Below the pieces are notes generated by a model. The model was not told the DNA's origin and made no database searches. It was given only the letters and a program-made list of their open reading frames with translations. A stretch of DNA of 64,000 nt from the NCBI GenBank assembly GCA_022478985.1, contig JAKSZP010015913.1, positions 1 to 64,000 of the forward strand. The letters are read 5' to 3'. The stretch's first letter is position 1. Each line of letters opens with the position of its first letter. Shown piece after piece: positions 1-64,000 of this stretch. A program made the position numbers and the translations under genes. The DNA is from Massospora cicadina. Its lineage: Eukaryota; Entomophthoromycota; Entomophthoromycetes; Entomophthorales; Entomophthoraceae.

Positions 1-2643
1 AAAACGCTTCTTAAGTTATGGCAAGCCAATATGGATATTAAACCATGTGTATTTAATGAGTTAATAGTATATTACATTGCTAAGTAAATATCAACGGAAC
101 CCACAGAGCTAAATGTAAGTATAGCGCGAGTAATCCAGCAAATATGTAATGAGGAAACTAACATTACTGCTGGCTTTTAAAGATTTGAATTCATAATATG
201 AATGAATGTCAGGTTTTAGCATGTGAATGCGCTTTCAGGTTGTTCCACCTCAACTTACAAGAAATTATGAAACAATTTATTTTCCTAAACACTTGTAAGC
301 CTGAACAAAGATACAAAGCTTTAGAGTTTAATGAGTCTGGCCATGCAACTGGATACTGCGCCAAGATCTTTGTACATTATTAAAAACGTCCACTTGAGCA
401 TCAAAAGTTATGAATTTTATAACATGCTCATGAAGGAATTTGCAATGACATTCCAGTTGTATTATGCTAAAAGACAGGAAGATAATGAAGATAGTACAGA
501 CCAGGACGCTTACAACGATATACCACTTCAGAGAAGGAAGATATTTATAATTCTGATTGACAATAGCAAAGTTTCAGTTAGAAATGCACCTTCTGTCATA
601 AGAGGTTATACTTCATGACTACATCTGATCCAAAAAAAACTATTACTTCAGTATTCTCCTTCAATATATGCCATACCGTTCTGAATAAGAACATCTTGAA
701 GGATTTAAATCTACCAGAGAAGCAATATATTCTATTTTAAATATTCAAGGCAAGCTGACAAGGGGACGGACATTACTGAAATAGAGAAAGAAAGTATTGA
801 CATGAAACCTTAGCAGGGTCAACTCTGTCGTAGAAAGTTTTTTTCACCACTGGATTGGGACTCGGATTTTTCTGGTTACATCATGGGTAAGGTTTTCATG
901 TTATTATACCTACTAACTGCCAATAGCTTCCTTCAGCTGGCACCCCAATCAATGTGCAAAGGGCGGAGATTGAACCTGCAACCTTCAGGTTGGTAGCTGT
1001 ACGCCCTACTGACTCACCTTCCACCCCCTCAGAGAAGCACTATATCTCAAAAAGAAAATTTGAAACAACTAGTGAGCACATAGAAACTTTTCATCAATGA
1101 GATTGCCAACTTGAGAATGCTTTCAGCCAAACTCATGCTTTTGATATTATTATGCAGAACCAATTGAAATGGAAGAAGAAATTAAAGAAGTTATGAAGCA
1201 ACAGATGGATAATGTGAAATTCCAAAAGACATGTCAGACTATGAATTTTGGTCAATGAGAAATCTTCCAGAACGTCAATCAAAATATTTGTAATCAACTG
1301 GAAGGAAGTTCATATTGTGAACAGCTCTTCATAACAGGGCAAGCTGAAACTGGAAAAACTTTTCTATTTAATCCATTCAAGGACAAATTAATCAATGCTA
1401 TGGCAATCAGGATGTGAAAGTTGTCACCCTCACTGGCGTTGCAGCACAATTAGTACGGGGCAATTACATTCATTACTAAAATTACTTGTTCAAAAGAATG
1501 GTAAAAACGTTTGTGATATTCCAAGGCTTAGTGGAAACTATCTCAGGTTGATGCCTCAGGAGTGGAAGAATATTAATTTCTTCTTCATAGATGAGATCTC
1601 AATGGTACCATACAAAATGCTTTTCATGATCAACTCACGCCTAAAACAACTTAAAAACAACATGGAGCCTTTTGAAGGTATCAATATCTTAGTATCTGGT
1701 AAATTGATGCAGCTACCACCAGTAATAGGAAGACGAGTATTCCAACAGCCAGAACGTTTGCTTCCAGCTAAGCACATTTGGAGACTGTTAACACTATCTG
1801 AATTAAAAAAGAACATGAGACAACATAGTGATACAAAATTCATTGACATTATAAATGATCTTAGAGTTGGATAACTTACAGTCAACCACATAGCTTTGTT
1901 GATGGACAAAGTTAACACTAACATAGATAATACATTTTTAATAGAAAGAGCATTGTGAATTTACCAAACCAAATAACAAATTAATGAACACAACAGGAAA
2001 GTACTGTAGAACTTTAGAAGCAAAGGCACTGAAATCTTCAAGATTTCAGCACAAGATCAACTCATGGATGCCAGTCAACTATTCTGAGATGATGCTCACT
2101 TGGATACTATCATAACAAATGACATTAACAACATTGGAGGTTTGTCAAAGGATTTGGAAATATGCTTTGGATCAAAAGTCATGCTGTGATTGAACATTAA
2201 TGTATTCAGAGGTCTTGTTAATGGAGCAATAGAATTTTGTTACTAAAATCATCTTGCCACATTTCTGTAGAGGCCAACTTTACAAGAATTACATACTATC
2301 AGTCTGAATAGATTTTAGCAGAGACAGCTCTCATGTAATACAGCCACAAGACATTCAATTTCCTGCCCTGTACAGCCACAGAACTTCTGAATTCCAAAGG
2401 TTGCCGTTAATTTTATCATGGGCATCAAACGTCCATAAAATGCAAGGCAGCCCTGTGGACTATGCAGTTGTTTATCTATGTCCAAAGCTCTTTGCTGAAG
2501 GTCAAGCGTATGTCAGACTTAGCCAAGTTAGTTCTCTCAATAGACTTAGGATTGAAGAATTAGGAAACTCCAAATTAACTGATAATAAACTTGTAATAAT
2601 GATGCACATCAGAGATGGGTTTAATGAAAAATATTTAATATAA
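1..2643 (+). pseudogene. Helitron Rep-helicase relic (5' end outside window)
   Basis: This is a decayed Helitron transposase, a rolling-circle Rep endonuclease fused to a PIF1-type helicase. The window opens inside the Rep domain. Frame 61-84 reads a Tyr-Tyr-Ile-Ala-Lys stretch, and the codon where the second catalytic Tyr of the YxxKY motif belongs is TAA (85-87). Helicase motifs follow in broken frames: Walker A GQAETGKT (1337-1360), Walker B with DEISMV (about 1578-1607), a QLPPV motif near 1710, and the C-terminal PIF1 signature HKMQGSP...GQAYVRLSQV (2430-2540). The longest intact piece is 1395-1874, about 159 codons. Many stops and frameshifts and a SINE at 731-1029 show it is dead. A host PIF1 gene is less likely because Rep-like sequence lies directly upstream. 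Confidence 0.82.
731..1029 (-). mobile_element. SINE S2 (tRNA-like head, LINE-type 3' tail)
   Basis: This short retroelement lies on the minus strand inside the Helitron relic. Its head, near 1018-965, has RNA polymerase III-like boxes: an A-box-like stretch (GGTGAGTCAGTAGGGCG, complement of 1002-1018) and a B box (GCAGGTTCAATCTCC, complement of 965-979). Its 3' end (complement of 746-772) reads GTCCGTCCCCTTGTCAGC, the same tail as the LINEs in this window. It is flanked by a direct repeat at 715-730 and 1030-1045 (15 of 16 bases equal), as expected of target-primed insertion. It encodes no protein and would depend on a LINE reverse transcriptase. Confidence 0.72.
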
Positions 2644-3081
2644 ACTTATAAAACATTTGACAAAAATTGTGATACTTCTTTAAGTAAATGAATTATAATT
2701 AAACTTCCAATGAAAATTTAATATATTTTATGTTAATTGTATATACAAAATGCATATAAGTGACAAGAAAAGAGTTTAGTTCATTTACAAAAGTATTTTA
2801 ATAATCAAAAACTTCACTATTTGATTATTCAGTATGTAAAACCTTGATTAAAAATTTATTAATATATTTGAGAACATATGAGAAATTTTAATAAAGAATG
2901 TTTTTTTAGCACTAGGTGGTCCCAATCTACAGGGGGGATACACCTATCTCTCAATATATAATGTTATCTTTGAAAATCCAAATTAACCTAGTAATTTAAC
3001 TTATTTAATGTATAATAATAATTTAATTAAATTACAACTAAAAAGTAGAAGATAATTTTTTTAAATTTGCTTTTCTTAAAG
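2644..3081. other. AT-rich spacer, no gene seen
   Basis: No ORF, RNA gene or clear repeat boundary could be supported here. The last 20 bases belong to dispersed repeat R1, which is interrupted by the ORF1-only element that follows. Confidence 0.5.
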
Positions 3082-3179
3082 AGAAAATAATAAAGATTCG
3101 ATTTATTTGAGGTACGCTGACCAGGGGACAGACAGTACCAATCACAACACTCAAAACGGCAAAACAAACTACTAACCAG

Positions 3180-4901
3180 GTGGGAAGCAGAAACTGCTTA
3201 ACCCACCATGGCAGAGGGTGAGGAGGGGTTGGGGGTTGATTTTCAGAAAGACCCACCTCGATCAAGGGGTGTTGGTTACAGTACTGGATCAGAGCAGAGA
3301 GCCAGGGCGTTGGGGCATCTGCATAGTGGGGGCTGAGGTCAGCGTAGAAGGAGTTTTCCACTTCTGCATCAAGATAATGATGGGAAAGTGTTTCAACAAA
3401 AGCTGCGAGGAGAACTTCAGCTTCTTTGCGGGCTTCAGGAAGTTGGGTGAAAAGGGAGATACTGTGGTGGGTGATTTTGGCTGAGGGGTTGAATGAAGCA
3501 AGCGTTGCAACATTCATAACAGCGATTTCAGCATCATCAAATAGTTTTGAGATGTCACTGCAGGGAGATTCAGGGAAGTCAGGGGGAAGAAGATGGTGGG
3601 CAGGCCATGCTGGAGCTGAGCCGCTGACTGGGCCACCGCGGTGCGTAGTTTTGGGCAATGAAGAGAGGCCACCGCAGCTAAGGCGAGCTGGTGGTCACTT
3701 TGGAAGGGGGCTGTATTGGGTAGAGGAGCGAAAATGGCGAGGGGTAGGGGTTTCATCAAAGTTGGGAAGAAAAATTCTGCCCGACCATAATCGCCATGGC
3801 AGAGAGGTTGACCTGTATGCTTACTAATGAGGATATTACCTGATTCGTCAGTTTCAGCCAATAGATCCCATGGATTTTGGTTCACTGGAATAGTGGCATT
3901 TAAATTTGAGTAGATAGGATTGGGCGAATGGGCAGCTGCTTGGGTCGAATGTTGGTCCAAGCATTGCTCTGATTGGCTGGCGTAGATTTAGGTGGGAGAG
4001 TGAGGATGGAGGTTTTTTGTGGGGCTGATTTTCCATGTGGGCCCACTGAACGAGATTGGAGGGTGGGAGGGGGCAGCAAAGCGCCCCATACTGAACCTCC
4101 AGAGGGGGGCTCAGAAGCTGCATTAGCGGATTTGGCCTTAGGGCATGCTCTTTTTGCATGGTTGAGGCCAAAGCAGAGGAACAAATCTGCCTACCATTAT
4201 TGACCTGAGCCCAAAAGAATTTGATCAGGCGCTGCAGCCACACTAGCGCGGGGTGGGATTTGTTGGGCTATGGTAGGGTGGTGTGGTATGATGGTGGCTG
4301 TTGCACGAGGAGCAGCAAGGCGTTCTGCACCAGATGGAACGGCAAAGATGAGGTTGAGCTGAGTGCCATAAGCCATGAGCCCCGCGACCAACTGGTCATA
4401 CAAAACCTGGGGTGGAAGGTGGGATGGGAGATTTGCAAAGGATACCACTAGTGTGGTGTCTGAAGGGAGGCGAGTACAGGTTGTGGGAATGGGGTTTTTT
4501 TTATAAATTAGAGGAGTTTGTGCTGCCACTTCAGCATCCTCCTCAGATTGGAACCCAACGTCAAAGTAGCCCTTAAAAGGGCGGAAGTCTACAAAGCCAG
4601 CTGGCGCAAAGGCTGTAGTGGCTAGGTCAATAATTGCCTTATCAGCATATGGGAATAAACGCCCATAGTCCACTCTGAGGCAATAGTGAATAGCAGAGCG
4701 AGGGAGGGCGAGAGGATGGGGGCGAGAAGGGTGGACGCGCGCCAGGTGGAGCGCTAAGTCCCATGGGGGGACAAAACGGTTGAAAGCAGTGGGTGGGCTG
4801 TTTGAACCCATCCGAACGCGCTTGCCTGCAGGGCGGAAAACGCTAGGTGGGGGTGCACTGCTGCCCCACACTGGGGTAGCAGGCGGCAGAGCCAAGGACA
4901 T
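3180..4901 (-). pseudogene. LINE ORF1-type RNA-binding protein (frameshifted)
   Basis: The first ATG on the minus strand is at 4901, and that frame stays open to 4197 (about 234 codons). It starts proline-rich. Two stretches then resemble the RRM-like folds of LINE ORF1 proteins: one around YFDVGFQSEEDAE, and one around TLVVSFANLP with GLMAYG downstream. The frame then shifts, and the zinc knuckle (LCFGLNHAKRACP, about 4135-4180) lies in another frame. Five rather than six bases separate its first two Cys codons, so a one-base deletion lies inside the knuckle. Later frames (3960-3514 and 3658-3150) hold the C-terminal part, with the block NPWDLLAETDESGNI, which also occurs in the copy near 51.7 kb. 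The likely role of the intact ancestor was binding element RNA in a ribonucleoprotein. Confidence 0.68.
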
Positions 4902-4954
4902 CAAAGAATAGGTTTGGGCAGATGGATGTGGATAAATAAACTTAAATTTAAAAT

Positions 4955-4976
4955 CGCTCAAAAGTGACTTTGAGCG
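4955..4976. repeat. Perfect 8-bp inverted repeat at 5' end of ORF1-only element
   Basis: CGCTCAAA (4955-4962) and TTTGAGCG (4969-4976) are perfect inverted complements around a 6-base loop. It lies about 15 bp inside the element's 5' end and upstream of the ATG, so in the transcript it would be a 5'-UTR hairpin. Confidence 0.7.
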
Positions 4977-5008
4977 GTTAAAGAGAGTATAGAAAATAAT
5001 AAAGATTC

Positions 5009-5190
5009 ATAAGATATAAAGTAAAAAAGCAAAAAGTCAAACAAAAAAAGTTGCACAAAAAATTAGAAAATAATTTCTTTGCCAAATAATTACTGTAAAA
5101 AAATTATTCATGTATACCTGCAAAAAAACAAGCCAGGTGCACTTACATACAATCATACATATAATCATATAAAGTATGTAAATATATGTA
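5009..5190 (+). repeat. Dispersed repeat R1, copy a
   Basis: This A-rich block contains AAAGTTGCAC, then TTTCTTTGCCAAATAATTA, TTATTCATGTATACCTGC and AATCATATA. The same ordered words occur at 20070-20260 on the same strand and at 26590-26830 on the opposite strand. The repeat begins upstream with TTGCTTTT..TTAAAGAG, seen at 3068 and 5325. Copy a is therefore split by the ORF1-only element. No coding potential. Confidence 0.65.
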
Positions 5191-5330
5191 ATATATTTTT
5201 TATTTATAATATTTATAATATTATATATGTATAATATAAATATATTATATTTATAATACATTAAATATATTAATATATAATAATTATATATTATATATTA
5301 TTAATGAAAAAAAAATTAAAAACTTGCTTT
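5191..5330. repeat. AT-rich low-complexity tract
   Basis: Mostly TA and TAT/ATA simple sequence. It joins R1 copy a to the start of a second R1 unit (ACTTGCTTTTTTTAAAGAG, 5322-5340), where element A inserted. Confidence 0.6.
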
Positions 5331-5340
5331 TTTTAAAGAG

Positions 5341-6064: not shown

Positions 6065-6066
6065 AA

Positions 6067-6082
6067 TGGTGCTCACTACAGG
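6067..6082 (+). promoter_or_regulatory. Primer-binding site, element A
   Basis: TGGTGCTCACTACAGG follows the 5' LTR by two bases. The same 16 bases follow the 5' LTRs of elements B (6865) and D (44085), so one tRNA ending ..GTGAGCACCA probably primes all three. Confidence 0.75.
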
Positions 6083-6127
6083 GTTAGTACACCACAAAAA
6101 CACTACCAAAAATATTAGGGTGTTGGG

Positions 6128-6386: not shown

Positions 6387-6863
6387 TGTCAAATAGTTGA
6401 TATGACTGGACAATATGCTACCCATATTTGTGTATCAGAGGGGTTCAAGACAAGTATCAAGATTTATGAAAAAGGATACACAAATTATAATCAAGTAAAA
6501 TGACATTTGGAAATATGAGAGGATTTATGCTGAGATTCAATAAAAATGAGAGTAGTTCAGAAAGGGAAGAAGAATAGAAGATTACAAAGCCAAGGATGCA
6601 TCCAGCTGGGGGGACTGAGGTACAAAGAGTCTCCCAGAAAGATTAAAGAGGCTAGTCTTTTTATGAGGGAAAAGGGAGCGCAGAGAAGTCTGCGATTTAT
6701 ATTAAATAAAGGTAGAAATAAGGGGCGATAGCTCCATATATATTTTATCAAAGTTTTATTAAGAAGTCAGTGATCCTCATATCATCCAGTTTGGTTGCTC
6801 AGTGGCTAATACCCTGTGCAAATCCAACTTGGCGGAATTGAGCCCAGATGCCAAGAATTGACA
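6387..6863 (+). repeat. Element B 5' LTR
   Basis: 477 bp, TG...CA, paired with 13253-13728. The central part (about 6560-6860) is nearly identical between the copies. Confidence 0.92.
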
Positions 6864-13252: not shown

Positions 13253-13728
13253 TATTGGGAAGTTAATATGACTGGATGATACGCTACCCATATTGGCGGA
13301 TCAGAGGGGTTTGAGATGAGTCTCTAGATTTATAAAAAAGGATACACGAATTATAATTGAGTAAAATGATATTCATTGAATCAAGAGGATTTATGCCAAT
13401 GTTCAATACAAATGAGAGTAATTTGGAAAGGGAAGAAGAAAAGAAGATTACAAAGCCAAGGATGCATCCAGCTGGGGGGACTGAGGTATAAAGAGTCTCC
13501 CAGAAGATTAAAGAGGCTAGTCTTTTTATGAGGGAAAAGGGAGCGCAGAGAAGTTTGCGATTTATATTAAATAAAGGTAGAAATAAGGGGCGATAGCTCC
13601 ATATATATTTTATCAAAGTTTTATTAAGAAGTCAGTGATCCTCATATCATCCAGTTTGGTTGCTCAGTGGCTAATACCCTGTGCAAATCCAACTTGGCGG
13701 AATTGAGCCCAGACGCCAAGAATTGACA
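13253..13728 (+). repeat. Element B 3' LTR
   Basis: Partner of 6387-6863. Its terminal TG has mutated to TA. It ends GAATTGACA before TSD CTTCC. Confidence 0.92.
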
Positions 13729-20790: not shown

Positions 20791-21127
20791 CTGTACCATA
20801 ATGCTAACAAAACATCTTTAATCTAAAAAATATTATGTGTATATATGTCATATATCATCTTTTAGACTACCAAACCAAATCCAACCTAACTTGGCACAGA
20901 TATTTTATAAAATAGAGAAACAACTCAAACAGGTATTCTAAAGTTATAATAAGAAAAATAAAATAAAGTAGTTATTTTAAAAATGAATGGATGATAAATA
21001 GTTAAGTTAACATATCCTTTTGGGTAAGGATGGTCATAACTAAGTTATCATTGCATACCAATATTCTGAACCAAGATAGCAAATAGCAAGGCAGTCCATG
21101 AAGCTTCTAGCATATTAGAGTACTGAT

Positions 21128-21707
21128 TGTAATGATCAAGTCTAACTCAATTGTTGCATTCTGACTTGGATTCAGATTTTCCAAATCTGAGTCAGATCAC
21201 TTTTAGATATTTTTGGTTCAGTCATTTTGGGCGCTGGGTTGTGCCTCACCTGTTGTAGATTAGGCTTGTGCAAGCCTAATCAATGATTTGGGTAAGGCCC
21301 ACAAAGTGCTGCCTTTATAAAGCGTGCCTGCCCATTCAAAATTCACTTTAGAATTCTACAAGGACACCCTAGTATTCTCTACTTGGGGAGCATTGTCAGT
21401 TGCTCCCCAAATGAGCTATTGACAACAGGGTCTTTTTATATCCAAAATAAAAATAAAGGTTGATTTGGGGTTCACATACCTCGCTTACCTGTGGTCTTTT
21501 TCCCTGTTGAGAAGCTATTTCTAGCAGGTTGGGATGTTCCAACTCCCCAGAGGACCTTGCATAACCAACCAGGATTAGGGGAGCGTTGGGTTTGTTGGGT
21601 GCTGAGGGTACCTCTCCCAACATGGTTGGCCAGTTTGGTTGCTTGTCAGTGCACCAAAAAATATTTATATATGGCAGTCAGAACTGAAGTTTTTCTGGTC
21701 CATGACA
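21128..21707 (+). mobile_element. Solo LTR inside SINE S1
   Basis: 580 bp starting TGTAATGATC and ending CCATGACA. Flanking bases are CTGAT (21123-21127) and CTGAG (21708-21712), a 5-bp TSD with one mismatch. Removing it restores a continuous SINE. It carries TATAAAG (21316-21322) and an AAATAAAAATAAAGG polyadenylation-like stretch near 21440. Its TGTAA..CATGACA ends resemble those of element C, but the body was not matched. It is the scar of LTR-LTR recombination. Confidence 0.8.
21316..21322 (+). promoter_or_regulatory. TATA box in solo LTR
   Basis: TATAAAG in the middle of the solo LTR, about 190 bp from its start. Confidence 0.5.
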
Positions 21708-21837
21708 CTGAGGTGGAGGTTTTTAGGTTTTATCCTCTTTTTCAATTAATTTAATTCCCCATCAATTGGTGTCATATCATCCCCAGGTTGGCCCACATCA
21801 AATAAATTTAGATTATATTATATTTAAGCTAACATAT

Positions 21838-25602: not shown

Positions 25603-25880
25603 AGGGGAGGATACTCAAGTGGTAGAGTAGGGACCTCTACCGCTGCCTCCCCGAGTTCGATTCCGGTACAGGAACTTTGGGTAGGGGACGATTATGACTG
25701 TGTTGGCGTTGCGCACCAATGCCCTGAACCGAGATAGCAAATAGCAAAGGCGGTCCATGGAGTTCCTGGCCTATCATACGCCGCGCATGGAGGTTTTCCG
25801 GATTTTATCCTCCTTTCCCATTCATTCGATTTCCCTTAATCGGTGCGGTATCGTCCCCAGGTCGGCCCACCTCGAATAAA
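25603..25880 (+). mobile_element. SINE S1, copy 2, full length
   Basis: A 278-bp SINE with a perfect 19-bp TSD, ATATATATTGGTAGATGGC, at 25584-25602 and 25881-25899. The head has an A-box-like CTCAAGTGGTAGAGTAGGG and a B box GAGTTCGATTCCGG, so it is probably tRNA-derived. The tail CCCCAGGTCGGCCCACCTCG then AATAAA matches the LINE tails. The perfect TSD and unbroken boxes suggest a recent, possibly active copy. It is GC-richer than its surroundings. Confidence 0.9.
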
Positions 25881-30546: not shown

Positions 30547-30670
30547 GGGTTACTTAGCCTAGCTGAGGTGGTTTCTGCTACCACTCTGGTGCAGGTTTGT
30601 TTATATATATTCAAAAACCAGTACTGGATAGAAAAACTTGGTTGGTATATTTACCAAAGATCGACCTTCT
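30547..30670 (+). mobile_element. Probable diverged SINE S3 copy
   Basis: AGTACTGGATAGAAAAACTTG and GGTATATTTACCAAAGATCG align with CTGTACTGGCTAGAAAACAT and GGTATATTTATCCCAAGGTT of the SINE at 37314-37452. An inserted TATATATA tract interrupts the head. No clear TSD. Confidence 0.45.
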
Positions 30671-30679
30671 TGTTTAATG

Positions 30680-31040
30680 TAAGGGGTATTAGAGTAGTGG
30701 AAATAACATCATACTATCACCCCTATGATGCAGGTTCAAATATGGTCATGGTAGAAATTTAATATCTCTTCAAAAAGAGGATAGTAATAAATCCTTTACC
30801 TTGAGTTGAGCTCCACTACTACTAAAATGGTAAGTGTTATATGTAGAGTCATGTACCATGCCTCAGTACATCCAAGCATGTCTACAAAGTAAGATAGTAT
30901 AACACTAGCCTATCAGATTACATACAAAATTTTTTGCCCCCAGTACTTGGGTTTTGTCCTCCATTACTATATTTTCACTTTCTCTCTCTAATCCAGTATG
31001 GTATATGTCCCAAGGTTGACCCAACTTGGATAATTAATAA
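30680..31040 (+). mobile_element. Probable SINE S4 (distinct head, shared tail)
   Basis: An A-box-like TATTAGAGTAGTGGAA (30688) and a B-box-like GCAGGTTCAAATATGG (30731-30746) start the block. The end carries GGTATATGTCCCAAGGTTGA and CCCAACTTGGATAA, the LINE/SINE tail. The body is unlike S1 to S3. No clear TSD, so limits are approximate. Confidence 0.45.
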
Positions 31041-34858: not shown

Positions 34859-35135
34859 GGGGATGATACCTGAGTGGTAGAATAGGGACATCTACCACTG
34901 CCTCCCAAAGTTTGGATCTGGTACAGGAACTTTGGGTAGGAGATGACTATGACTATGTTGGCGTTGTGCACTAATGCCCCAAACCAAGATAGCGAATAGC
35001 AAAGGCGGTCCATGGAGTTCCTGGCCTATTGTACACTGCACATGGAGGTTTTCCAGATTTTATCCTCCTTACCCATTCATTAATTTCCCCTCAATTGGTT
35101 CAGTATCATACACAGGTTGCTCACCTCAAATAAAA
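34859..35135 (+). mobile_element. SINE S1, copy 3
   Basis: Full-length S1 with a 17-bp TSD (34842-34858 and 35136-35152, one mismatch). The A-box region is CCTGAGTGGTAGAATAGGG. The B box has decayed (AAGTTTGGATCTGG), so it is probably silent. The tail ACACAGGTTGCTCACCTCAA followed by ATAAA is retained. It is older than copy 2. Confidence 0.85.
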
Positions 35136-37313: not shown

Positions 37314-37452
37314 AGAAGGGTGGTTAGTTGAGTGGGTAAAGCTGCTTCCACCCCTAGTTCAGGTTTTGAGTTCAAAGCCTGTACTGGCTAGAAAACATTC
37401 TCAGTGTGGTATATTTATCCCAAGGTTGACCCACCTCAAATAATTTAATTTT
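37314..37452 (+). mobile_element. SINE S3
   Basis: A 139-bp SINE with a 14-bp TSD (AAGAATTATATCTT at 37300-37313 and AAGAATTACATCTT at 37453-37466). The head has A-box-like TGGTTAGTTGAGTGGGTAAA and B-box-like TTGAGTTCAAAGCC. The tail reads CCCAAGGTTGACCCACCTCA then AATAA. Head and body differ from S1 and S2; only the tail is shared. Confidence 0.78.
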
Positions 37453-37820
37453 AAGAATTACATCTTTATAAAAGTTCAGATATTAAAATTAAACAAACAA
37501 CCCTAGGAGGGACTGTTGCCTTTAGATTAAGAGAGATAAAAGAATCAGAGAGAAATCTAAAACTAGCATAAACTTTTCTCTCTCATTGCAATCACTTTTG
37601 CATCTTATTCAATTAAAGTCTGATTCTAGTTTGATAATCTCACAGAGGAGATCAGTCTGTGCCCATGTCAGGGAGCAGTTGGGCAAGTAAGGTAAGAGGA
37701 GCAGGTGGTAGGCCCATAGCCTCAAACGTTTAAAAACGCCCCAGAGAAACTGGTGGAATAGAAAAAAAATAAAAAAACGGCAGTCACTATTTCCCCAGAA
37801 ATCCTCTCTTGGCAAGTGCA

Positions 37821-38864
37821 ATGCAACCAGTACATCAACACGCTGCACTCCCAACCACTCTCATCGGTGGAATATGGAGTCCAAGTGTTTCTGGACATCC
37901 AACAAACAGCTTAGTGGAAAAATTTTGTGGGGATGTGCACACCTTTTTTCCAACTGTGGTGTATGTTACACCTCACTCCATGTCATGCAGTTGGCTGGAC
38001 CTCAGTTTTGAAAACAAGGATGCAGCAGACAAAGCTGCTGCAGTGTGCATAGTGATTGGCCTCCCCAAAGGGCATTGGGTCATTGAAACCAAACGCACCA
38101 GATGGACAAAATCCAACCAAATTTTCCTCACGTTTGACTTTTTGCCTACTATGGTCAAACGTGCCATTTTGGAGCAGCACCTGAAAGATGGTCTCACCAT
38201 ATATGGCAAAATACAATCTTTTGAGATGCAATGCTTTACGCTGATGCCACACCTGTGCACTGGCAAAGCCATCGCAGTTCTGACCCCAACTGAGGAGATT
38301 GCAAAGGACCTAACCCAGATCCTGCACTCCACATATATCAATATTGAAGGGCATACCACCCACCCGTTCCAGATGACCGTGGACAGCGCACCCCCCATCT
38401 GCACCCATTGTGACGCATTTGGCCATAAGGCGCATGCATGCCCCATCAAGGAGGGTGTCACATTCCAAAAGCACCCCTTGGCGGCCATGGCCAGCGGAGA
38501 GGTGCACTACAAACCAACCACAAGCACCAAAGAGGCTTTCCCATGGGGAGCACAAGGCTGCTACCTACTGGTAAAACCTATCTTCCCTCAAGAGTGGAAG
38601 AAGGCCAAACAGGCCCACAGGGCCGCGGCCAAGGAAGTGACCAAAGTCGCCTCAGCTATCCCGCACTCCCAACGCCAGGAGGACATCAAAACCTTCTCAG
38701 CAGAAGCAACTCAGGAATCCATCAACCAATCAGATTGGGAAGCCCATGCTGATTGGGCCAACCAATCTGAGGATCCAATGGGTGACTCAAACTCACCTGA
38801 CCTTTGCAACCAAGCTCCAGTTGAAACTGACTTAGTTTCCAACCTACCTGAAAATTTTTTTTGA
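37821..38864 (+). CDS. LINE-1 ORF1, RNA-binding protein with CCHC knuckle
   Basis: An intact frame of 347 residues from the ATG at 37821; the frame is open a little further upstream but without ATG. Two RRM-like stretches are visible (around CSWLDLSFENKDAADKAA, and NQIFLTFDFLP with DGLTIYGKIQSF). The single zinc knuckle CTHCDAFGHKAHACP (about 38400-38445) has C-x2-C-x4-H-x4-C spacing. The C-terminal part is Lys/Ala-rich, then acidic. By family it coats element RNA and forms the retrotransposition particle. It shares architecture with the ORF1-only elements at 3.1-5.0 and 51.0-51.8 kb. Its frame survives while ORF2 decays. Confidence 0.85.
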   Translation: MQPVHQHAALPTTLIGGIWSPSVSGHPTNSLVEKFCGDVHTFFPTVVYVTPHSMSCSWLDLSFENKDAADKAAAVCIVIGLPKGHWVIETKRTRWTKSNQIFLTFDFLPTMVKRAILEQHLKDGLTIYGKIQSFEMQCFTLMPHLCTGKAIAVLTPTEEIAKDLTQILHSTYINIEGHTTHPFQMTVDSAPPICTHCDAFGHKAHACPIKEGVTFQKHPLAAMASGEVHYKPTTSTKEAFPWGAQGCYLLVKPIFPQEWKKAKQAHRAAAKEVTKVASAIPHSQRQEDIKTFSAEATQESINQSDWEAHADWANQSEDPMGDSNSPDLCNQAPVETDLVSNLPENFF

Positions 38865-39089
38865 CCTGAACGTTGGTGCACTAAACTCATCTGCACCACA
38901 AAAAATTCACTCAACGTCAGGGAAACAAAAGTGAAGGCAAAAGCCAATGAGAACCTTTCTGCTAAAATTAACAAAACCACCAATAGTGTTGCTGCAAACA
39001 CCCGTGCTGCCATGAAGGCCCATGGGGATCTAGAGGAGGCTAGTGGGCCCAGGTGCCCACCCCCTCACACCTAAGGTGCAATAGGGGAA

Positions 39090-42000
39090 ACCTTCACTTT
39101 AGGGACATTGAATATCGCCAGACTCAAGGCCTCACCGTCCCAGGCTAGGAAACTGAGTTTTTTACAAAAAAACTTACCTGTGGATATCCTGGCCATCCAG
39201 GAGTCCCACTGTCTGTGAGGTTCCGAGGATCCTTGGAAAAGCATGCTCCTCCCTTCCCTATCCATTTGGTCAGAGCACTGTGGGGTGCTATTTCAGAAAA
39301 ACAATTTTTTTAAATTTTTATTGTCAGAATCCTTCCTCAATGGCCGCGTCCTCGTTGTCACTTTCTCGTGGGCCAACATGGTGCATGCTATCATCAACAT
39401 CTATGCCCCAATCTGTGCATGAGAGCGTCAGGAATTTTTCTTGTCAGTCAAATCCCTCCCGTTACCCCCAGACCCTTTCATAGTCAACAACATGAACTGT
39501 TGGCTAAACACACCCATGGACCATTGGCCTTCCTCCTCTCATGCCCCCCAGGGTCACGTAGAACTTCACGTTCTAAAGGCCACCCTTGGGTTAATAGATG
39601 TGCTGCCATGGCAAGCCCTGCTGCTCAAAAACATAACGCGCCCCCACGTCCACAACAGCCAATTAAGGTCCATGACCCGCATTGACCTTATCCTTATGCT
39701 GGCGAAATTTCAATCTCACATTTCCCATTTCCAAACAACAAAAATTGAATTCTATGACCACCATCTGGTCTCAATAACCTACCACTTACCTGTCACAGTG
39801 GCTAAGGCCCCACATTGGTGCAAACTCCACCCTCCCAAACTTGCATCGCCAGGATTTTCCACTTGGGTAAAATCAGCAACTTTGGCAAAAGAGTTTGTTA
39901 CACCGTTTTGCGCAGACCCAATTTCCACATTTTCAGCCTTCAAAAAGGATACCATCTGCCACTCTCGCCACCTCTCCTACCGATGCTCATGAGCCACATT
40001 GGCCGTCATTTTGCACACTCTGGCAGAATTGGCACACCTGGAGTCCAACATCCCAGCCACAGGCTACAGCCCTGCATGGGGCTGGAAGTGGGCAGAGGCA
40101 GCCGCCCACCTCAACGCGCTTGAAAGGCAACACAGACATCAGGTTTGTGTTCAGTACAGGGCCAAACGCATTACAGAGGGTGACAAGTGCACCGCATATT
40201 TTTTTAAAAAATTCTTTGCACCATGCCAGAGCATGGTCTGCACACAGGTGTGGAGATTGGATGATTCTGTCACGGATATGCCAGCCAAAGTGGAAATCAA
40301 AATACAAAAGTATTACTCTGAGTTATACCAATCTGATCCAATTCAGCCAGCCAAAGTGGCAAAATTTTTTGACCAAACCCACATCTGCACCATTACCCAA
40401 TACCTGGAATTAATGAATTTGATTACTCCAAATGAACTCTGGACAGCCATCCGCGGTGCACCAAATTGGAAATGCCCAGGCCCAGATGGCATTCCATTGA
40501 ATTCTACAAAAAGTACTTCAAATATATATCCCCACTGCTGCTTGCCTCCATTAACCAGAGCCTTCTGGAAACGTGCCTCCTACCAGGAGGACAAGAGGCC
40601 TTCACCATCACACTCTTCAAGAAAGGGGACAAGCTAGACTTAGCCAACTGGCGCCCCATTTCTTTAATTAACACAAATACGAAAATTTTAACTAAAATCA
40701 TGGCTAACCATTTAAAGATTGTAGCATCTGCCACCATCTCCCCAGAACAATTTGGTTTCATACTCAGAAGGTCAATTTGGGACAAAGTGCACTCTGTGGC
40801 TAACGCATGCCAGTCTACAGCCTCTGGGGCACTTGTATTCTTGGACCAACAGAAGCCCTTTGATAGAGTAAACTGGGAATACCTCAGGGCCTGCTTCCAT
40901 TAATTCTGCTTACCCCCTCACTTCATCAACTGGGTAATGCTGCTCACGGAATCTTCAACAATGGCAGTGCGTGGCCCTGGCTTCCTAACGGAAGTAGTCC
41001 GCCCTCAAAGGGGCTTATGACAAGGGGACCCCCTTAGCCCACTCTTATACAACTTCAGCTTTAACCATTACTTCGAAACGTGAATGCCCACCTCACTGGG
41101 GTCAATGTACCAGGCCAAGCCCCAGTCAAGATGATGGCGTTTGCAGATGACTGTGTGGTTGAGGTGTCTAATAATAAAGATGCACGCGCGCTTGAAGCTC
41201 TCATCCAGGAGTATTCCTGGGTAAGTAATGTTGCACTGAATGCTTCCAAAACTGAAATCATCCTCCTTGATCAGTATCTAACCTGCTGGACCCCAGCAAC
41301 CAGTGCCCATCCCGGCCCATCTGCTCGCACACGTGATCACCCTCCCTGCTCACCCCACACCCACCCCACTAGTGCTCCCCTTCATGCCACGCCCTACCAT
41401 AGGGCCTGTCCGCCATCTGGGCGTGTGAGTGGAGGCAGGCGGGTATGCCTCAGCAGTAATGGAAAGTTGTATTCTAGACAACATGACAAAGCGCATCACC
41501 TCCCTCAGAGCCCACCCTACTTCCCTTACTGGCAGGGTTGTTTTAGCCAACTCTATGCTCCTCTCCAAAGTCTGGTTTGGAGCCAACGCCATCGCCTTCT
41601 CCCCAGGTTTTTTCAAATCTATGTATGCCCTTCTGCAAGGGTGGCTTTGGTCAGGCCGCCCACCTCCAGTTCGGCTTGAGGTCATGTTTAGCCCTCATCG
41701 TCATGGTGGCATGGGCTTGCTTGACTTTAAAGCCCATGATGCCAAGGTCCTGGGCACCTGGATTGCGGCCATCACTGCCCCTACGCTCCCCTCCCAACAC
41801 TGGTCCCGCGCAGCCCGCTCCAACTTCTCCCAAGCCTTGGGCCTTAACAATCCATCGAACCCTCACTCCTTGATGAATTATATAACTTCCCACCCATTGG
41901 CCACAGGTCCTCATGGTACTAAAACCCACTACAAACAAATCCTCCTCTTCATGCGGAGCGCTGAGTGGAGAATTTGTATTAGTGAACACACAGCCCAGAG

Positions 42001-42598
42001 AGGCCGCCCCTCTCCTCAGTTCACACAAGAGGTACAGGGGTTACCCATTCAAGATGGCGTGATCCCCACACGGCCCCATGTCCTATCCAGGGTGGACTAC
42101 CTGGACATGATGGTCATCCCTTAAACCATTGAGACTCAGAAGACTACTTGGAAATACGTACACCATCCTCTGTTGCAGCCTCAAATCCGTTACCATGTGT
42201 GGCGCTGCCTAAGGTGGGTGTACCATATGGCTGAGCTCTCTAATGCTTTACACTCATCCTGCGTCATGTGTGGCCAGTATGGAACGCTATTCCACCACAT
42301 GGAGAAGTGTCCTACCTCTAAAGTGATATGGCGCGAAGTTCAACGTCTGCTTAGCCAGGATCAAACATATCCCTTCAGTCTGTCAAGAGATATGTTTGCT
42401 TTATCAATGGCCTCCCCCCTTCCACCCTCCCTCCATGCTCTGGTGGTTGCAATCGCCATGTGGACTATCCACACGATTGTCTTGGATGCCATTGCAGGCT
42501 CCACCCCCACCCTCCCAGAAACTGTCCACAGATTCCAGTCTCATTTGGTGGACCACTTTCAGGTGTGGATGTTTATATACCTCCCACCGCATTGCTGA
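39090..42598 (+). pseudogene. LINE-1 ORF2: endonuclease, reverse transcriptase, zinc finger
   Basis: The endonuclease starts near 39100 (TLNIARLKAS, then DILAIQESH). Later motifs are NIYAP (about 39400), a changed metal-binding block (NNMNC where GDFN is usual), and RIDLIL and YDHHLVS near 39680-39775. The RT begins near 40470 (GPDG, then FKKGDKLDLANWRPISLIN). The catalytic FADD is intact at 41140-41151. The tail domain 42173-42598 has CVMCGQYGTLFHHMEKCP, the zf-RVT type finger. At least five frame changes and stops (for example at 39217, 41020 and 42122) kill it. No RNase H was seen. Confidence 0.85.
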
Positions 42599-42850
42599 CA
42601 GCTGGTCTCCTCCTGGTTCCCAGTTTGGTTCATCAAATCAGACCCTTTCCTCCACACGTGTTCAATTGTGGCTACGGCCCCTTCACACGTTCCCTCCCCC
42701 TCCCCATAGTGGCGTTCCTGCTGGCAACAAGAGATAGCATCGCTTCTCTGGGGTGCCTTCCCTGTTACTAAGTTTTTGTTTCTTTTGGGTCAAATTTGGA
42801 AGTGTCCATCCCATGGTCAGCTTTCCTCGCAATAAATGAAATCTAAAACT

Positions 42851-49716: not shown

Positions 49717-51000
49717 GAAAATGGGGGCATAGAGGAAAATTCATGAGAGCTGGGGCAATAACCCATTGCTCATATACTACATGAGTTAGGCCTTATAACT
49801 GGGAAAACAGGTTCACTGGATCCTTTAAACTTTCATATTTCTAAAGGGTGCTGGCCATAGTCCAGGAAGAGGGTCTGTTCTTAAGGACTTACATTGGCTG
49901 AGTATGATAGTTTTCTCATCAACTTAAATCATTCTGTTAGCAACTTTAGCTAAAATGGACTTAGCTTTAAGATTATCATAATCTTGCTTTAGAGTCACAA
50001 TGTTATAAATTAAAAGTTTTCATGCTAAAAATTTTCTTTTATAAACCAAAGTATAAAAGTTATGCCAAGATTTTATATAAACAATTGTATTAAATGGAGC
50101 TCCTGATTGCTCTTATGCTGATAAAAGTAAAAAAATCAACAATAAATTTTGTGTTTGGCACTTATAAACCTTTCCAACAGCGGACATGATTTAATTATTA
50201 TTTTTGGATATGAAAAGTACTGGCGCATGCTTTCTTGAACCAGTTAGAGACCAAAACCTTTTAGTTGATTATTGTGTTCCTACTGTTTATCTCTTCCCTT
50301 ACTCTTAACCTTCATCTATGTTCAGTTAATTAGAGGCAACAAACACATGCTAAGGTTAAGTCTGATAGAAATCCTTTTTTTAATTATAAGCATAGGGGTT
50401 TTATACAAAGGTTAGTAAAATATGAAAGGATAATTAGAAATCATATTTAAGTAAAAGTCATTATAAGTTAATCTCCTGCAAGTGACCTATTCTGGACATG
50501 AATGGTGGACTCAATATTACTATTGCACTAAGGTCAAATTATGGATTCTTCTTAGCACTTTAAAATACACTTCTTGTGCACACTGATGTGTCCTTCTTTA
50601 TAGTATCATTATTTTTTAATGATAACATATATCTCTCCATAAGGACTAATAGCCATATTGTTAAGCTCATCATGTTAAATCATGTGATTATCTAAATTCT
50701 ATGATTCAATCTGTCAGACTTGCTCTCATTCTATTGTTGTTGTCCTAAAATCCATTGTCATTAGTTTTCAGTCCATTGCTGTACCTCAGATTGGCCAGAC
50801 TGATGTTCTCAAGAAACTAATGGTTGTTTCTTTTAATTCTTCCAACACAAGAGATATTACATGGCCATTTGCAGAATAATCTGCAACACAATTCCCAAGA
50901 TGAGATCTAGGGAAAAATAAGAGATTCTGGCATAAACGCTATTGTAAACAACTTTAGTAACTTTGTGTCATATTGTATACTTTACATATTAATTAAGGCA
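49717..51000. other. AT-rich spacer, nothing recognised
   Basis: No ORF, LTR, SINE tail or tRNA-like sequence was seen. Confidence 0.45.
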
Positions 51001-51807
51001 AGCTGGCCAGGGGATGGACAATACCAACTCTCAGAGGAGCTAGTAAACCTAACTCAAATCTAAAACGTGTGGAAAAAATGAATGGATTACTCAAACCAAT
51101 TTAAAACTAAAATAACCCAACCAGGGTAAAGGCAGTAAACTGCTAACTGTCCATGGCGGAGGGTGAGGGGGATCAGGAGGCTCATCATCCTCATCTGGGA
51201 TGGACAAAATTCAGCATAGAGCTGAGAGCATGGGTTTAGGTGCATCTTTAAAGGGGGTTGAGGTAGCAACGTGGGGCTTGTAACTCAATCTTTGCTATGA
51301 GAAGGATGGTGATGTATTTGAAAAAGGACTTTCTCAGCCTTGAGGCGAACCTTAGGAAGGGTGTTGAAGGTGATATGCTGTTGCTGGTGATGTAGGTTTT
51401 GGGCCAAATTTTGTGACTGTCACAACTTTTTGTATTGCTTTACTGGCAACTTGATGAAATTGGAGGTGTTCTCTTTTATGTGTTAAGTGATTGAAGGGAA
51501 GGTCAGGAAGGGGTAGGTCCTTGATTAAGACTGCAGCTGATTTTGCTATGGCCTTTTGGTGAGTGCAACAATCAGGGAGGCAACAGCCCCTTTGGTGAGT
51601 TGGTGGTCACTTCAGAATTTGTCAGCATTGGGAATGGAGCATGATACCAAGGCGGAAACTGAGATGTATATTCAGCATTTAAGTACATTTTGAGGCTTGG
51701 GGCCTTGACTGATTTGGGGATAAAGTTACCCAACTCATCAACCTCTTCAAGTAGTCCCATGGATCTTTGTTATAGATGAGCGGTTTATTGGTATTAGGGT
51801 TGACTGG
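51001..51807 (-). mobile_element. ORF1-only LINE derivative, copy 2 (3' part)
   Basis: The complement starts with a stretch like the C-terminal ORF1 part of copy 1: NKDPWDYL, then EVDELGNF and FPPWYHAPFPM, against NPWDLLAETDESGNI. It ends with the tail GTCCATCCCCTGGCCAGC (complement of 51001-51030). No RT or endonuclease lies between the ORF1 part and the tail, as in copy 1. The 5' part is cut off where the 5' LTR of element C begins and was not found beyond C. Frames are broken. Confidence 0.68.
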
Positions 51808-53197
51808 TGTAAGTCCCGGGGAATGTCCTCTGGCCATTGATTGGGCCAATTTTTCCATTCCTGGGTAAGAAGACACTGAAGAGGATGGTGGTACCCCTCA
51901 TTAATCAGGGCAATCTCGCTCACATAGTAGATGAGCGCTGGTTAACAGCTCTTCCACTTTGGATCCCACCCCTCAGTACCCACACTTACCTCAGCAGAAC
52001 TGTTATGGGGAATCAGCGAAATCTAAGGTGAGATTGTCAAATTAGAATCAATCAAATTTAATTCAAGTGGTAATCTGGACGATTCTCAGATCTCAAATGG
52101 CCAGAAAAGCATGAAGACTGAGCTATCAGCTGAAACGCCTAACAGTTATAATTCAGTTTACATGATGATATAAAAAATCCCCTCCTCCCAAATCCGTCAG
52201 TATCACCCCTGATGGGCAGCTTCCTGCCAGCAAATTTTTCGTTGCGCCTGATGCAATGCCACTGACCAAACAAATGGCCCAGCGACTGTGTGGGTGAGTT
52301 GGGCATCCCAAACCTGTTCACAAACAAATGGACCTGTCCCTATGTGGGGTGGCCTTGGGGGATTCCCATCACTCGTCAGGCTAAAAGCCATCACACCAAA
52401 TGTCAGAAATGCAGCTGAGCCTCAGCTTGGACATTTGAGGTTGAACCAACAGCAACTCAGCCTGCTGCCAAATTTTTTGATGTCAGTTCTCAAGGAACAA
52501 ACCCGCCCATTCCCAAATAATTCACTGGTTAGGTCGAAATTGAGGGTCCCAATCCCAACTTGTCACCACCCCAATTCAACCACTATTTAATCAGTTGCAT
52601 AGCACTGAGAAAATTGTTGGTCAATTTTCTTCATTTTCCTTTATTAAAAATTTTGTCAAAAACCAAATAATTTTTATTGTATTATTCCTTTTGACTGCAT
52701 CCCTGATGGCGTTTCCCTGGTGGCCTGCCAGTCCATATACTGGATGGGCTCTACCAGTACTCTTGGTCACTATGGCCCCCTCCTTCATCAATTGGATTCA
52801 GTGAGTCTGATACTTTTGGCTCCTTTAACCCCATTATCGTGAACTTCTAGTACCAGTACATAGAAACTTGTGGCCTTACATCCACCAATTGCAAGAGAGA
52901 ATCTGTCTCCTTGCCTCCCCAGTTGAAATGATCCCATATGCCAATGAACTCATCAAAACTATCTCTGTGATACCACCCCCTGCAGCAAGGCCCCCTGGGC
53001 TGGGAGTGGGCTCATTGTGGTTCATCGTCAGTATCATACTCACTGTTGTGCTGTACCAACAATTCTTCATTTCCCAATGCCCAGCTCCATATCAAGTCAT
53101 TCAGTTGGCAATGTCTCTGGCATTCTGGCTTGCTTTTGGGTGCTTACGCATCCCAACTGGCAGGCCATTCTAAACTTCTTCTGCCATTTCCATGACA
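51808..53197 (+). repeat. Element C 5' LTR
   Basis: 1390 bp. It aligns with 57663-59083 along its length except for a diverged section near 52090-52230. It reads open into gag at its 3' end. Confidence 0.85.
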
Positions 53198-57640: not shown

Positions 57641-57662
57641 CCTTAGGAAAAGGAAAGGGTAA
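57641..57662 (+). promoter_or_regulatory. Polypurine tract, element C
   Basis: AGGAAAAGGAAAGGGTAA-type purine run directly before the 3' LTR. Confidence 0.65.
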
Positions 57663-62040: not shown

Positions 62041-62050
62041 TTAAATTTTA

Positions 62051-64000
62051 AATTTATTGTGGGGAAGGCCGACCATGGGATGGACACTTCCGAATATGAC
62101 TCAGACGAGACAAAACTCAGTACTAGGTGAGGCACCCCAGAGAAGCGATGCTATCTCTTGTTGCCAGCGGGAACGCCACTTATGGGAAGAGAGGAGAGGG
62201 AACGTGTGTAGGGGGTGTAGCCACTATTGAGCACGTGTGGAGGAAGGGGTCCGATTTGATGAACCAGACTGGGAACCAGGAGGAGACCAGCTGCCGGCGA
62301 CGTGGTGGGAGATATCCAAACATCCACGCTTGAAAGTGATCCACCAAATGAGACCGGAATCTGTGGACAGCTTCAGGGGAAGGTGGGGATAGATCCGGCG
62401 ATGGCATCCAAGACAATCGTGTGGATAGTCCACATGGCGATTGCAACCACCAGAGCACGAAGGGAGGGTGGGAGGGGGAGGCCATTGATGAAGCAAACAT
62501 ATCTCTTGACAGACTGAAGGGATGTGTTTGATCCTGGCCTAGCAGACGTTGGACTTCGCGCCATATTACTTTAGAGGTGGGGCACTTCTCCAGGCGGTGA
62601 AACAGCGTTCCATACTGGCCACACACGACACAGGATGAGTGTAAAGCATTAGAGCGCTCAGCTGTACGATACACCCGCCTCAGGCAGCGCCACACATGGG
62701 AACGGACTTGAGGCTGCAACAGAGGATGGTGTGCGTATTTCCAGATAGTCTTTTGGTCTCAGTGGAATAAGGGATGTCCATCATGTCCAGGTAGTCCACC
62801 CTGGATAGGACTTGGGGTCGAATGGGGATCACGCCATCATGGATGGGTAGCCCCTGTACCTCTTGTGTGAACTGAGGAGAGGGGCGGCCTCTTTGGGTTG
62901 TATGTCACTAATACGAATTCTCCACTCTGCGCTTCGCATGGAGAGTAGGATTCATTTGTAGTGGGTTTTGGTCCCGTGAGGACCTGTGGCTGATGTGTGT
63001 GATGCGAGGTATTTCATCAGGGAGTGGGGGTTTGATGGATTGTTGAGGCCCAAGGCCCAGGAGAAGTTGGAGCGGGCTGCGCGGGACCAGTGTTGGGATG
63101 GGAGTGTGGGAGCAGTGACGGCCGCAATCCAGGTGCCTAGGATCTTGGCGGCATGGGCTTTGAAGTCAAGTAGGCCCATGCCACCATGATGATGAGGGCC
63201 AAACATGACCTCTAGCCGTACTGGTGGAGGGCGGCCTGACCAAAGCCATCCTTGTAGCAAAGCATACAGGGATTTGAAGAAGCTTGGGGAGAAGGGGATG
63301 GCGTGGGCTCCAAACCAGACTTTGGATAGGAGCATAGAGTTGGCAAGAACAACCCTGCCAGTGAGGGTAGTAGGGTGGGCTCTGAGAGAGGCGATTTGCT
63401 TCGTCACGTTGTCCAGTATATGGCCCTCCATTACTGCTGACGCGTATTCTCCTGCCTCCAACCACACGCCCAGATGGCGTACCGGTCCTATGGTAGGTCG
63501 CGGCACAAAGGGGAGCACCAGTGGAGCGTTGTGTTTTGAGTTAGTAAGGCGTGGACTTGGGCGAGCAGCTGGGCTGGGTTGGGAACTACTTGCTGGGGCC
63601 CAGCAGTTCTGAAACCGACCAAGGAGGATGATTTCAGTTTTGGAGGCGTTCAGTGCCGCGTTGCTTACCCGGGAATATTCCTGGATGAGGGCTTCAAGCG
63701 CGCGTGCATCTTTATTATTAAACACCCCCACCACGCAATCATCTGCAGATGCCATCATCTTGACTGGGGTTTGGCCTGGCACATGGACCCCAGTGAGTTG
63801 GGCATTCACATTTCGCAGTAGTGGGTCAAGGCTGAAGTTGTATAAGAGTGGGCTCAGGGGGTCCCCTTGTCGCAGGCCCCTTTGAGGATGGACTACTTCC
63901 ATTAGGAAACCTGGGCCGCGCACAGCCATTGTTGCAGATTCCGTGAGCAGCATCACCCAGTTAATGAAGCGGGAAGGTAGGCGGAATTGTTGTAGGCAGG
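62051..64000 (-). mobile_element. LINE-2, close relative of LINE-1 (5' part outside window)
   Basis: The 3' end is at about 62051. The complement reads GTCCATCCCATGGTCGGCC, then CCACAATAAAT, the LINE tail. It runs minus-strand off the right edge. Nucleotide and protein match to LINE-1 (41.0-42.8 kb) is high throughout. It interrupts gypsy remnant E. Confidence 0.9.
62180..64000 (-). pseudogene. LINE-2 ORF2, RT C-terminal half and zinc finger
   Basis: One frame is open from the window edge region to 62952 (334 codons or more). It includes QRGLRQGDPLSPLLYNFSLD and the catalytic block, here SADD rather than FADD. Reading stops at TGA (62949-62951) where LINE-1 has CAA. After a one-base deletion near 62755 relative to LINE-1, the C-terminal frame 62719-62180 carries CVVCGQYGTLFHRLEKCP, the zf-RVT finger. 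With one nonsense codon, one single-base deletion and Phe to Ser in the active site, it is the least decayed LINE coding region here. Confidence 0.86.

Follow-up and report, generated by a model that had tools for sequence, protein, structure and literature searches.

In a stretch of 64,000 nucleotides from the fungus Massospora cicadina (contig JAKSZP010015913.1, positions 1 to 64,000; hereafter the window), ten retroelement insertions end in variants of one motif of about 40 nucleotides. This tail is shared by long interspersed nuclear elements (LINEs), by elements of about 1.9 kb that encode the first open reading frame (ORF1) alone, and by several families of short interspersed nuclear elements (SINEs). 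Target-site duplications (TSDs) enclose seven of the ten insertions at both ends, cores of the tail recur thousands of times in the genome on the same element classes, the outer stem of the tail covaries, and the ORF1 of the ORF1-only element bears signs of constraint. These data can be read with good confidence as a stringent-type non-LTR (long terminal repeat) retrotransposition system, in which the enzyme of an L1-like LINE would recognize the tail as a hairpin, and the SINEs and the ORF1-only element would be copied in trans.

Specifically, the LINE would supply the endonuclease and reverse transcriptase (RT). Its enzyme would recognize a 3' hairpin of about 40 nucleotides, composed of an outer stem of 4-5 bp and an inner CC-NNN-GG mini-hairpin followed by CCTCAAATAAA, with priming at the nick in the target, close to the AATAAA end. 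Any RNA that ends in this hairpin could thereby be copied into a nicked target, leaving TSDs of 13-19 bp. The SINE families SA, B1, B2 and probably B3 bear the tail, as does the ORF1-only element, and all would be mobilized in trans; the ORF1-only element keeps an ORF1 of its own, with an RNA-recognition-motif (RRM)-like fold and a CCHC knuckle, which probably serves to package its own RNA. The stringent model itself, in which a LINE enzyme binds a specific RNA 3' end, is described in PMC3747384. A wider reading, which may as well prove wrong as right, is that of a three-tier community: an old ORF1-only lineage, selected for an RNA-packaging protein and about as common as the LINE in the core sample, would compete for a stringent fungal L1-like RT with at least four SINE families of the tRNA type, and the hairpin would be passed between heads.

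One tail in the window and across the genome

The ten tails fall into two forms. The A form ends a SINE (746), two ORF1-only elements (3100 and 51001) and two LINEs (42798 and 62051), and the B form ends SINEs throughout (21775, 25846, 31003, 35104 and 37418). An earlier note, made from the sequence of the window, had proposed that these ten ends are one motif, and leave-one-family-out profile searches support it: for each family left out of the training, its own tails rank first in the window. The corresponding expectation (E) values are 4e-4 and 4e-3 for the LINEs, 1.5e-8 and 4e-5 for the ORF1-only elements, 2.7e-5 for the SINE at 746, 4.8e-8, 3.8e-5 and 0.49 for B1, 3e-7 for B2 and 0.015 for B3. 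The softest case is the B1 tail at 35104-35135, whose E of 0.49 has a background match of 0.51 just behind it. Furthermore, a profile of either form, trained without the other, finds members of the other form as its best outside matches. The A profile reaches 25852 (E 3.6e-4), 21771 (E 0.028) and 37416 (E 0.27) ahead of the next background match at 0.58, and the B profile reaches 3140 (E 0.0022) and 62087 (E 0.21) ahead of background at 0.38. A covariance model with the hairpin scores all ten tails at E 2e-7 or below, with the next match at 0.3, its training set being the same ten. An 11th tail, decayed and absent from the earlier list of ten, lies at about 30650.

The M. cicadina assembly (1,469,884,898 bases in 16,968 contigs) was scanned with exact cores of the tail and with reversed-pattern controls. 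The A core CCCCTGGTCAGC occurs in 14,546 exact copies compared with 3 for its control, and the B1 core CCCCAGGTYGGCCCACC in 4,014 copies compared with 0. A chance likeness of A/T-rich ends, to which we give next to no credence, is rejected by these counts together with the leave-one-out ranks and the TSD null described below. When the LINE RT, the ORF1-only protein and the A tail were scanned in collections of genome contigs and viral contigs, they gave no relatives or no matches. The density of tails in the window is probably atypical for the genome: ten 4-kb pieces from elsewhere, picked regardless of tails, contain none.

The elements upstream of the A core were classified by DNA and protein matches at 40 of the first 100 places listed (every fifth, at two offsets), which come from the first 22 contigs. 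Fourteen are LINEs with RT, 17 are ORF1-only elements and 9 are SA, with none left over; these fractions are rough, as they represent the first 22 contigs and undercount LINEs, CCCCTGGTCAGC leaving out LINEs of the window type (CCCATGGTC). TSD-like repeats (score of at least 11) define lengths of 1888-1952 bp at 9 of the 17 ORF1-only loci and of 285-294 bp at 5 of the 9 SA loci, the sampled pieces of 2.8 kb allowing such lengths for these two classes and not for LINEs. One sampled locus, L023, is a 381-bp composite in which a B2 head is followed by SA and an A tail, with a TSD of 15/16; this arrangement suggests that the hairpin can be handed between heads. Five more tails were met within the 40 loci (L001-L040): one of a LINE, one of SA, two of B1 and one of B2. 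The B1 core was sampled at 20 of 100 places listed, each with 1 kb upstream, and all 20 are B1 SINEs, part of them with TSDs. The co-occurrence of LINEs, ORF1-only elements and SINEs on a common tail, first proposed from the window, extends to the sampled genome loci, and among these loci the cores end several kinds of element: LINE, ORF1-only and SA on CCCCTGGTCAGC, and B1 on CCCCAGGTYGGCCCACC.

Most tails have AATAAA at or near their end, and such short ends stand in place of a long poly(A), in line with the suggestion of the earlier note that no poly(A) is needed. The hexamer is what would be expected if the tail were a host 3'-processing or polyadenylation signal gained independently by unrelated elements. 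This explanation is nevertheless highly improbable, given that the common sequence covers about 40 nucleotides with a covarying stem, far beyond a hexamer, and that the core ends a retroelement in 40 of 40 and 20 of 20 sampled loci.

Insertion ends

The tails mostly lie at the boundaries of TSDs. Seven of the ten insertions are bracketed by TSDs of 13-19 bp. At one end these adjoin the element start, and at the other they adjoin the tail, either directly or after up to 15 further A/T-rich bases (Table 1). The earlier note had the size range and the boundaries right; its count of six gives way to seven. The search found no TSD at 31003 or 51001, and the element at 62051 runs off the window. At random places, a score of at least 13 is reached in 18 of 250 cases within 6.5 kb and in 4 of 250 within 900 bp, and a score of at least 11 in 11 of 250 within 900 bp. 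The weaker TSDs are those of B2 (score 11) and of the 804-bp B1 (score 12), and the TSD of the LINE, with a score of 13 over 5.3 kb, is by itself only moderate evidence.

Table 1 Tail-bearing elements of the window, with the number of matching positions in each TSD
Element	Position	Strand	Length (bp)	TSD	Remarks
LINE	37565..42837	+	5273	13/13 (37552-37564, 42838-42850)	ORF1 37773-38861, then frameshift-broken ORF2; tail 42797-42837
Second LINE copy	62052..64000	-			Cut by window end; RT and C-terminal zinc region; tail 62051-62092
ORF1-only element	3100..4990	-	1891	18/18 (3082-3099, 4991-5008)	Tail 3101-3140
Old ORF1-only remnant	50987..51840	-			Tail 50987-51027; 5' end and TSD not found
SINE SA	731..1029	-	299	15/16 (715-730, 1030-1045)	tRNA-like head with box B; A-form tail 739-779
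SINE B1	25603..25880	+	278	19/19	tRNA-like head; B-form tail 25840-25880
SINE B1	34859..35135	+	277	16/17	84% identical to 25603-25880
SINE B1	21016..21819	+	804	16/18	5'-truncated; two B1 matches; interruption of ~590 bp
SINE B2	37314..37452	+	139	13/14	tRNA-like head; B-form tail 37402-37445
Decayed second B2 copy with tail	30560..30666	+			Alignment score 70 vs at most 36 in 500 single-base shuffles
Probable SINE B3	30679..31040	+			tRNA-like head; B-form tail 30994-31035; no TSD found; start placed by eye

A covarying stem in the tail

Folded singly, most tails form similar two-part hairpins. When the hairpin described above is laid over the window tails, 77.8% of its cells are paired compared with 25-48% when the structure is slid along the alignment, and covariation is 0.333 compared with 0.204 in shuffles, a value reached by 0 of 500 shuffles (1 of 500 in a second alignment). 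Five measures of covariation were used. As the structure was derived from the same window sequences, the outer stem was retested on the 40 genome tails, which had been chosen by the core only. In this set, 83.5% of the outer-stem cells are paired compared with 27.5-54.5% when slid, covariation is 0.339 compared with 0.166, and 16 cells are doubly changed compared with 5.6; the values for all three were reached by 0 of 1000 shuffles. Frequent outer stems are GGTAA/TTGCC, GGTAA/TTACC, AGAAG/CTTCC and AGTAC/GTACC. Since relatedness among tails inflates covariation counts, the outer-stem covariation appears as good but not final evidence that the tail forms a hairpin. Judged from these alignments, a covarying stem would fit the stringent tail recognition that the earlier note had proposed.

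The LINE

The RT of the LINE is L1-like, as judged from its RVT_1 domain, its structural matches and a tree of matches rather than of named LINE clade references. Pfam places RVT_1 at 40436-40900 (E 3e-14), and human L1 ORF2p is among the best Protein Data Bank (PDB) matches. In a tree of 38 rows, from which matches of 230 amino acids or fewer were dropped, the LINE falls into a six-row group (support 100/99) with Rhizopus, Parasitella, one row filed under plant (P0003) and one nameless row; the remaining 32 rows stand separate, and their named members are plants. Two M. cicadina proteins match the RT at 70% and 88% identity. The second LINE copy is 86% identical to the first over 1554 columns and has RVT_1 at E 3.2e-10, with zf-RVT below its cut-off. 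The translated LINE ORF1 contains a CX2CX4HX4C zinc-knuckle motif, for which Pfam zf-CCHC_6 stays below cut-off; its structure model is of very low confidence (predicted local distance difference test score, pLDDT, of 32).

Both window LINEs carry another core (TCCCATGGTCRGC; CCCATGGTC) in place of CCCCTGGTCAGC. Mammalian L1 copies usually show strong 5' truncation. Within the stretch examined here there is no sign of it, as each of the 14 sampled LINE copies (L002, L004, L007, L008, L015, L017, L020, L025, L026, L033, L034, L036, L038 and L040) continues for 2.2 kb or more upstream of its tail.

An ORF1-only lineage

The ORF1-only element encodes ORF1p alone and carries a LINE 3' end, and is as such HAL1-like in plan. 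In the copy at 3100, the frame is interrupted and the stop codon lies 72 nucleotides before the element end; this copy has 16 M. cicadina protein matches, the best at 92% identity. The remnant at 51001 has two collinear matches to the ORF1-only protein (51576-51635, E 0.044; 51718-51840, E 0.004), and its DNA aligns to the 3100 element with a score of 45 against a shuffle maximum of 27. These protein and DNA matches rule out that it is a separate SINE. A further weak fragment of the ORF1-only protein (E 0.004) lies at 59707-59844 on the reverse strand, with no strong tail match adjoining.

The model of one M. cicadina ORF1-only protein (P0044) contains an RRM-like part, with block pLDDT of 67-86 over residues 81-150; the rest is mostly low, and the mean pLDDT is 45.5. 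Its best Foldseek matches are mostly RRMs, with human L1 ORF1p at rank 35, the best E being 0.01 and none being 0.001 or lower. The P0044 sequence also shows a CX2CX4HX4C knuckle.

The ratio of nonsynonymous to synonymous rates (dN/dS) was estimated by the Nei-Gojobori method for 17 copies, namely the window copy and 16 loci (L027 gave no codons), with 120 of 136 pairs sharing at least 120 codons. It is 0.76 for the one pair with dS below 0.2, has a median of 0.65 for 8 pairs with dS of 0.5-0.8, and a median of 0.45 for 24 pairs with dS of 0.8-1.5; of the 120 pairs, 49 are saturated, and dS is at least 1.5 in the remaining 38. The protein-guided codon alignment leans somewhat to conserved stretches. 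A dN/dS that falls as copies diverge is the pattern expected if source copies are selected and inserted copies decay, so that the codon comparisons show signs of purifying selection on this ORF1.

The ORF1-only copies could instead be recurrent internal-deletion derivatives of LINEs, whose ORF1 has no function of its own. There is precedent for such an origin: in mammals, L1 gave rise to HAL1 on several occasions (PMC5753468). Moreover, P0043, a gene model of M. cicadina, opens with a match to the ORF1-only element and continues with one to LINE ORF1; provided that it does not fuse two elements, there may be a LINE with an ORF1 of this kind. The fall of dN/dS with divergence speaks against this origin, however, as do the size of the class, with 17 of the 40 sampled loci and a TSD-defined length of 1888-1952 bp in 9 of them, and the ORF1 comparison. 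The ORF1 of the element is just 22-23% identical to that of the LINE, and likeness of its DNA to the window LINE is restricted to about 48 nucleotides at the 3' end; by its ORF1 identity the element is not a recent deletion derivative of the window LINE (no search was made for more similar LINEs in the rest of the genome). We regard the deletion origin as unlikely and favor an independent, apparently constrained ORF1-only lineage.

SINE families

SA, B1 and B2 are short, non-coding and TSD-flanked, and measure 139-299 bp in the window when uninterrupted. Their heads are well supported, since each recurs elsewhere in the genome; B3, a single copy without TSD, is a probable SINE. The claim of at least four SINE families accordingly stands firmly for three, with the fourth being probable. 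The heads had also been described as unrelated, and mutual alignments of the SA, B1, B2 and B3 bodies are indeed no better than marginal: B1 and B2 match with a score of 19 against a shuffle maximum of 18, and B2 matches the region upstream of B3 with 29 against 23, owing to the decayed B2 copy there. Three B tails (21775, 25846 and 35104) nonetheless carry one common head, B1, and the heads, although unrelated at the sequence level, all look like tRNA-type promoters.

Box A and box B, the internal promoter boxes of RNA polymerase III (Pol III), are clear in the B1 at 25603 and the B2 at 37314, where the score is reached in none of 400 shuffles and in none of 800 window pieces. For B3, with its start placed by eye, 44 of 3000 window pieces reach the score; from a first, wrong start there was no signal (357 of 400 shuffles). 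Rfam calls no tRNA in the five head regions, and B2 alone gives a weak match to the full-length tRNA model (11 bits, E 9.3, less than the gathering score of 29).

Two side observations concern the arrangement of these SINEs. The roughly 590 bp inside the B1 at 21016 (about 21116-21704) are of no identified kind, with no clear repeat at the inner junctions. The B3 head at 30679 directly follows the decayed B2 (30560-30666), and this adjacency, together with the B2 head joined to SA in L023, hints at dimeric SINEs or at repeated insertion into tails.

Points against, and a possible second LINE lineage

Several results weigh against the reading as a stringent-type system. On the side of the RNA, three tails (51001, 21807 and 31040) adopt a fold that differs in register or shape, the mean stability of single tails is not unusual (z of -0.64), and RNAalifold, when unguided, returns hardly any consensus structure (3 pairs, -0.03 kcal/mol). 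Doubly changed pairs and further pair types are, furthermore, not unusual among the window tails (66 and 71 of 500 shuffles; 50 and 74 of 500 in the second alignment). On the side of the LINE, the window copies of both the LINE and the ORF1-only element have interrupted frames, and the broken frames gave no endonuclease match in Pfam or PDB, the sole PDB match being a ribosomal protein at E 0.15. Motif-like residues may point to an endonuclease of the APE type, and TSDs of 13-19 bp would fit such an enzyme. As for the SINEs, box A and box B are weak in SA (21 of 400 shuffles) and in the B1 at 34859 (7 of 400), and neither ARAGORN nor Rfam predicts a tRNA anywhere in the window. Finally, the B tails are 45-61% identical to the tails of the window LINEs, and 0 of the 20 sampled B1-core loci have a LINE or ORF1 protein match in the 1 kb upstream examined.

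The last two results bear on a different arrangement, in which two or more related LINE lineages have their own tail variants: A-tail LINEs would move SA and the ORF1-only element, an unseen B-tail LINE would move B1, B2 and B3, and the likeness of the tails would come from LINE ancestry. The division of the tails into A and B subtypes agrees with this arrangement, as do the stem types of the A-core LINEs, of which there are at least two (4 of the 14 sampled copies have NGAAG/CTTCC and 6 have GGTAA/TTRCC). The lack of a LINE among the 20 B1-core loci cuts both ways, for it leaves the B tails without an identified LINE partner but also speaks against a common B-tail LINE. Two further findings blur the division: the tail of the ORF1-only element at 3100 stands between the forms (58-74% identical to B tails and 67-70% to LINE tails), and L023, with its B2 head and SA on an A tail (381 bp, TSD 15/16), indicates that heads can switch tails. 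Separate LINE lineages are, on balance, a possibility to be taken seriously, if somewhat doubtful. Given the stem subtypes, the distance of the B tails from the window LINE tails and the B1-core loci, the earlier proposal that one single LINE machinery serves all elements goes beyond the data; recognition of a hairpin by an L1-like LINE enzyme, with copying in trans, remains the preferred reading of the shared tail.

Other features of the window

Direct repeats at 6639-6863 and 13504-13728, which are 99% identical, flank protease and weak integrase matches and are probably LTR parts of a young Ty3-type element. A PIF1-like helicase fragment at 1392-1871 (E 8.7e-13) is possibly Helitron-derived, and a reading frame at 27796-28233 with an EB1 C-terminal motif (E 2.4e-12) is possibly a host gene exon.

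Comparison with known systems

Going by the parts of the literature at hand, common SINE/LINE tails, many heads per LINE, fungal pairs and ORF1-only relatives are each, singly, in print already. What is new is their combination on the tail of an L1-like fungal LINE, together with an independent, diverged and apparently constrained ORF1-only lineage. The salmonid partner LINEs (SalL2 and RSg-1) are not known to be L1-like, and HAL1 (half-L1) ends in poly(A).

The closest parallel for many heads on one tail comes from salmonids, in which several SINE families with different heads likewise use the 3' tail of one LINE lineage. Specifically, the SmaI and FokI SINEs share the SalL2 tail (PMC2653535), and SlmI (tRNA-Leu), HpaI and OS-SINE1 (5S rRNA) all share the RSg-1 tail (PMC3747384). 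The host, in contrast, is a fish, and the available portions of both papers do not mention an ORF1-only element. Fungal tRNA-type SINEs with a 3' end in common with a LINE are known as well, from Magnaporthe, Blumeria and Aspergillus: Mg-SINE pairs with MgL and SINE2-1_BG with Tad1-24_BG (PMC3747384), and AfuSINE2-1a shares the 3' untranslated region of the LINE I-1_AF (PMC5063351). Tad1-24_BG and I-1_AF are named there as Tad type, whereas the Massospora LINE is L1-like and its tail is also found on an ORF1-only element and on several heads. HAL1 resembles the ORF1-only element as a non-autonomous LINE relative that encodes ORF1p alone; it is described as an L1 derivative (PMC5753468), whereas the Massospora ORF1 is about 22% identical to that of the window LINE and its tail is a specific hairpin.

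No report of this tail-sharing system was found in the open-access literature searched, and the word SINE is absent from the main texts of PMC9584336 and PMC11105155 in the form available. The former lists 2,079 tRNA predictions for M. cicadina compared with 379 in an earlier assembly (PMC9584336), and we would guess that part of the 2,079 may be such SINEs.

The ORF1-only lineage can serve as a natural experiment on the role of ORF1p for the RNA that encodes it, as its ORF1 seems constrained in an element without RT. The hairpin itself is best compared with the stringent-type L1 lineage that Ohshima described in plants and a green alga (PMC3747384), in which an L1-clade LINE and a SINE likewise have a common 3' hairpin with compensatory stem changes and a conserved loop and flank; the plant hairpin is a different one, in another kingdom. 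From that work comes the question whether stringency was the original state of L1-type LINEs and gave way to poly(A) later, separately in plants and mammals (PMC3747384). With its covarying hairpin, its thousands of copies and its many guests, the L1-like LINE of this early-diverging fungus brings a third kingdom to the question.

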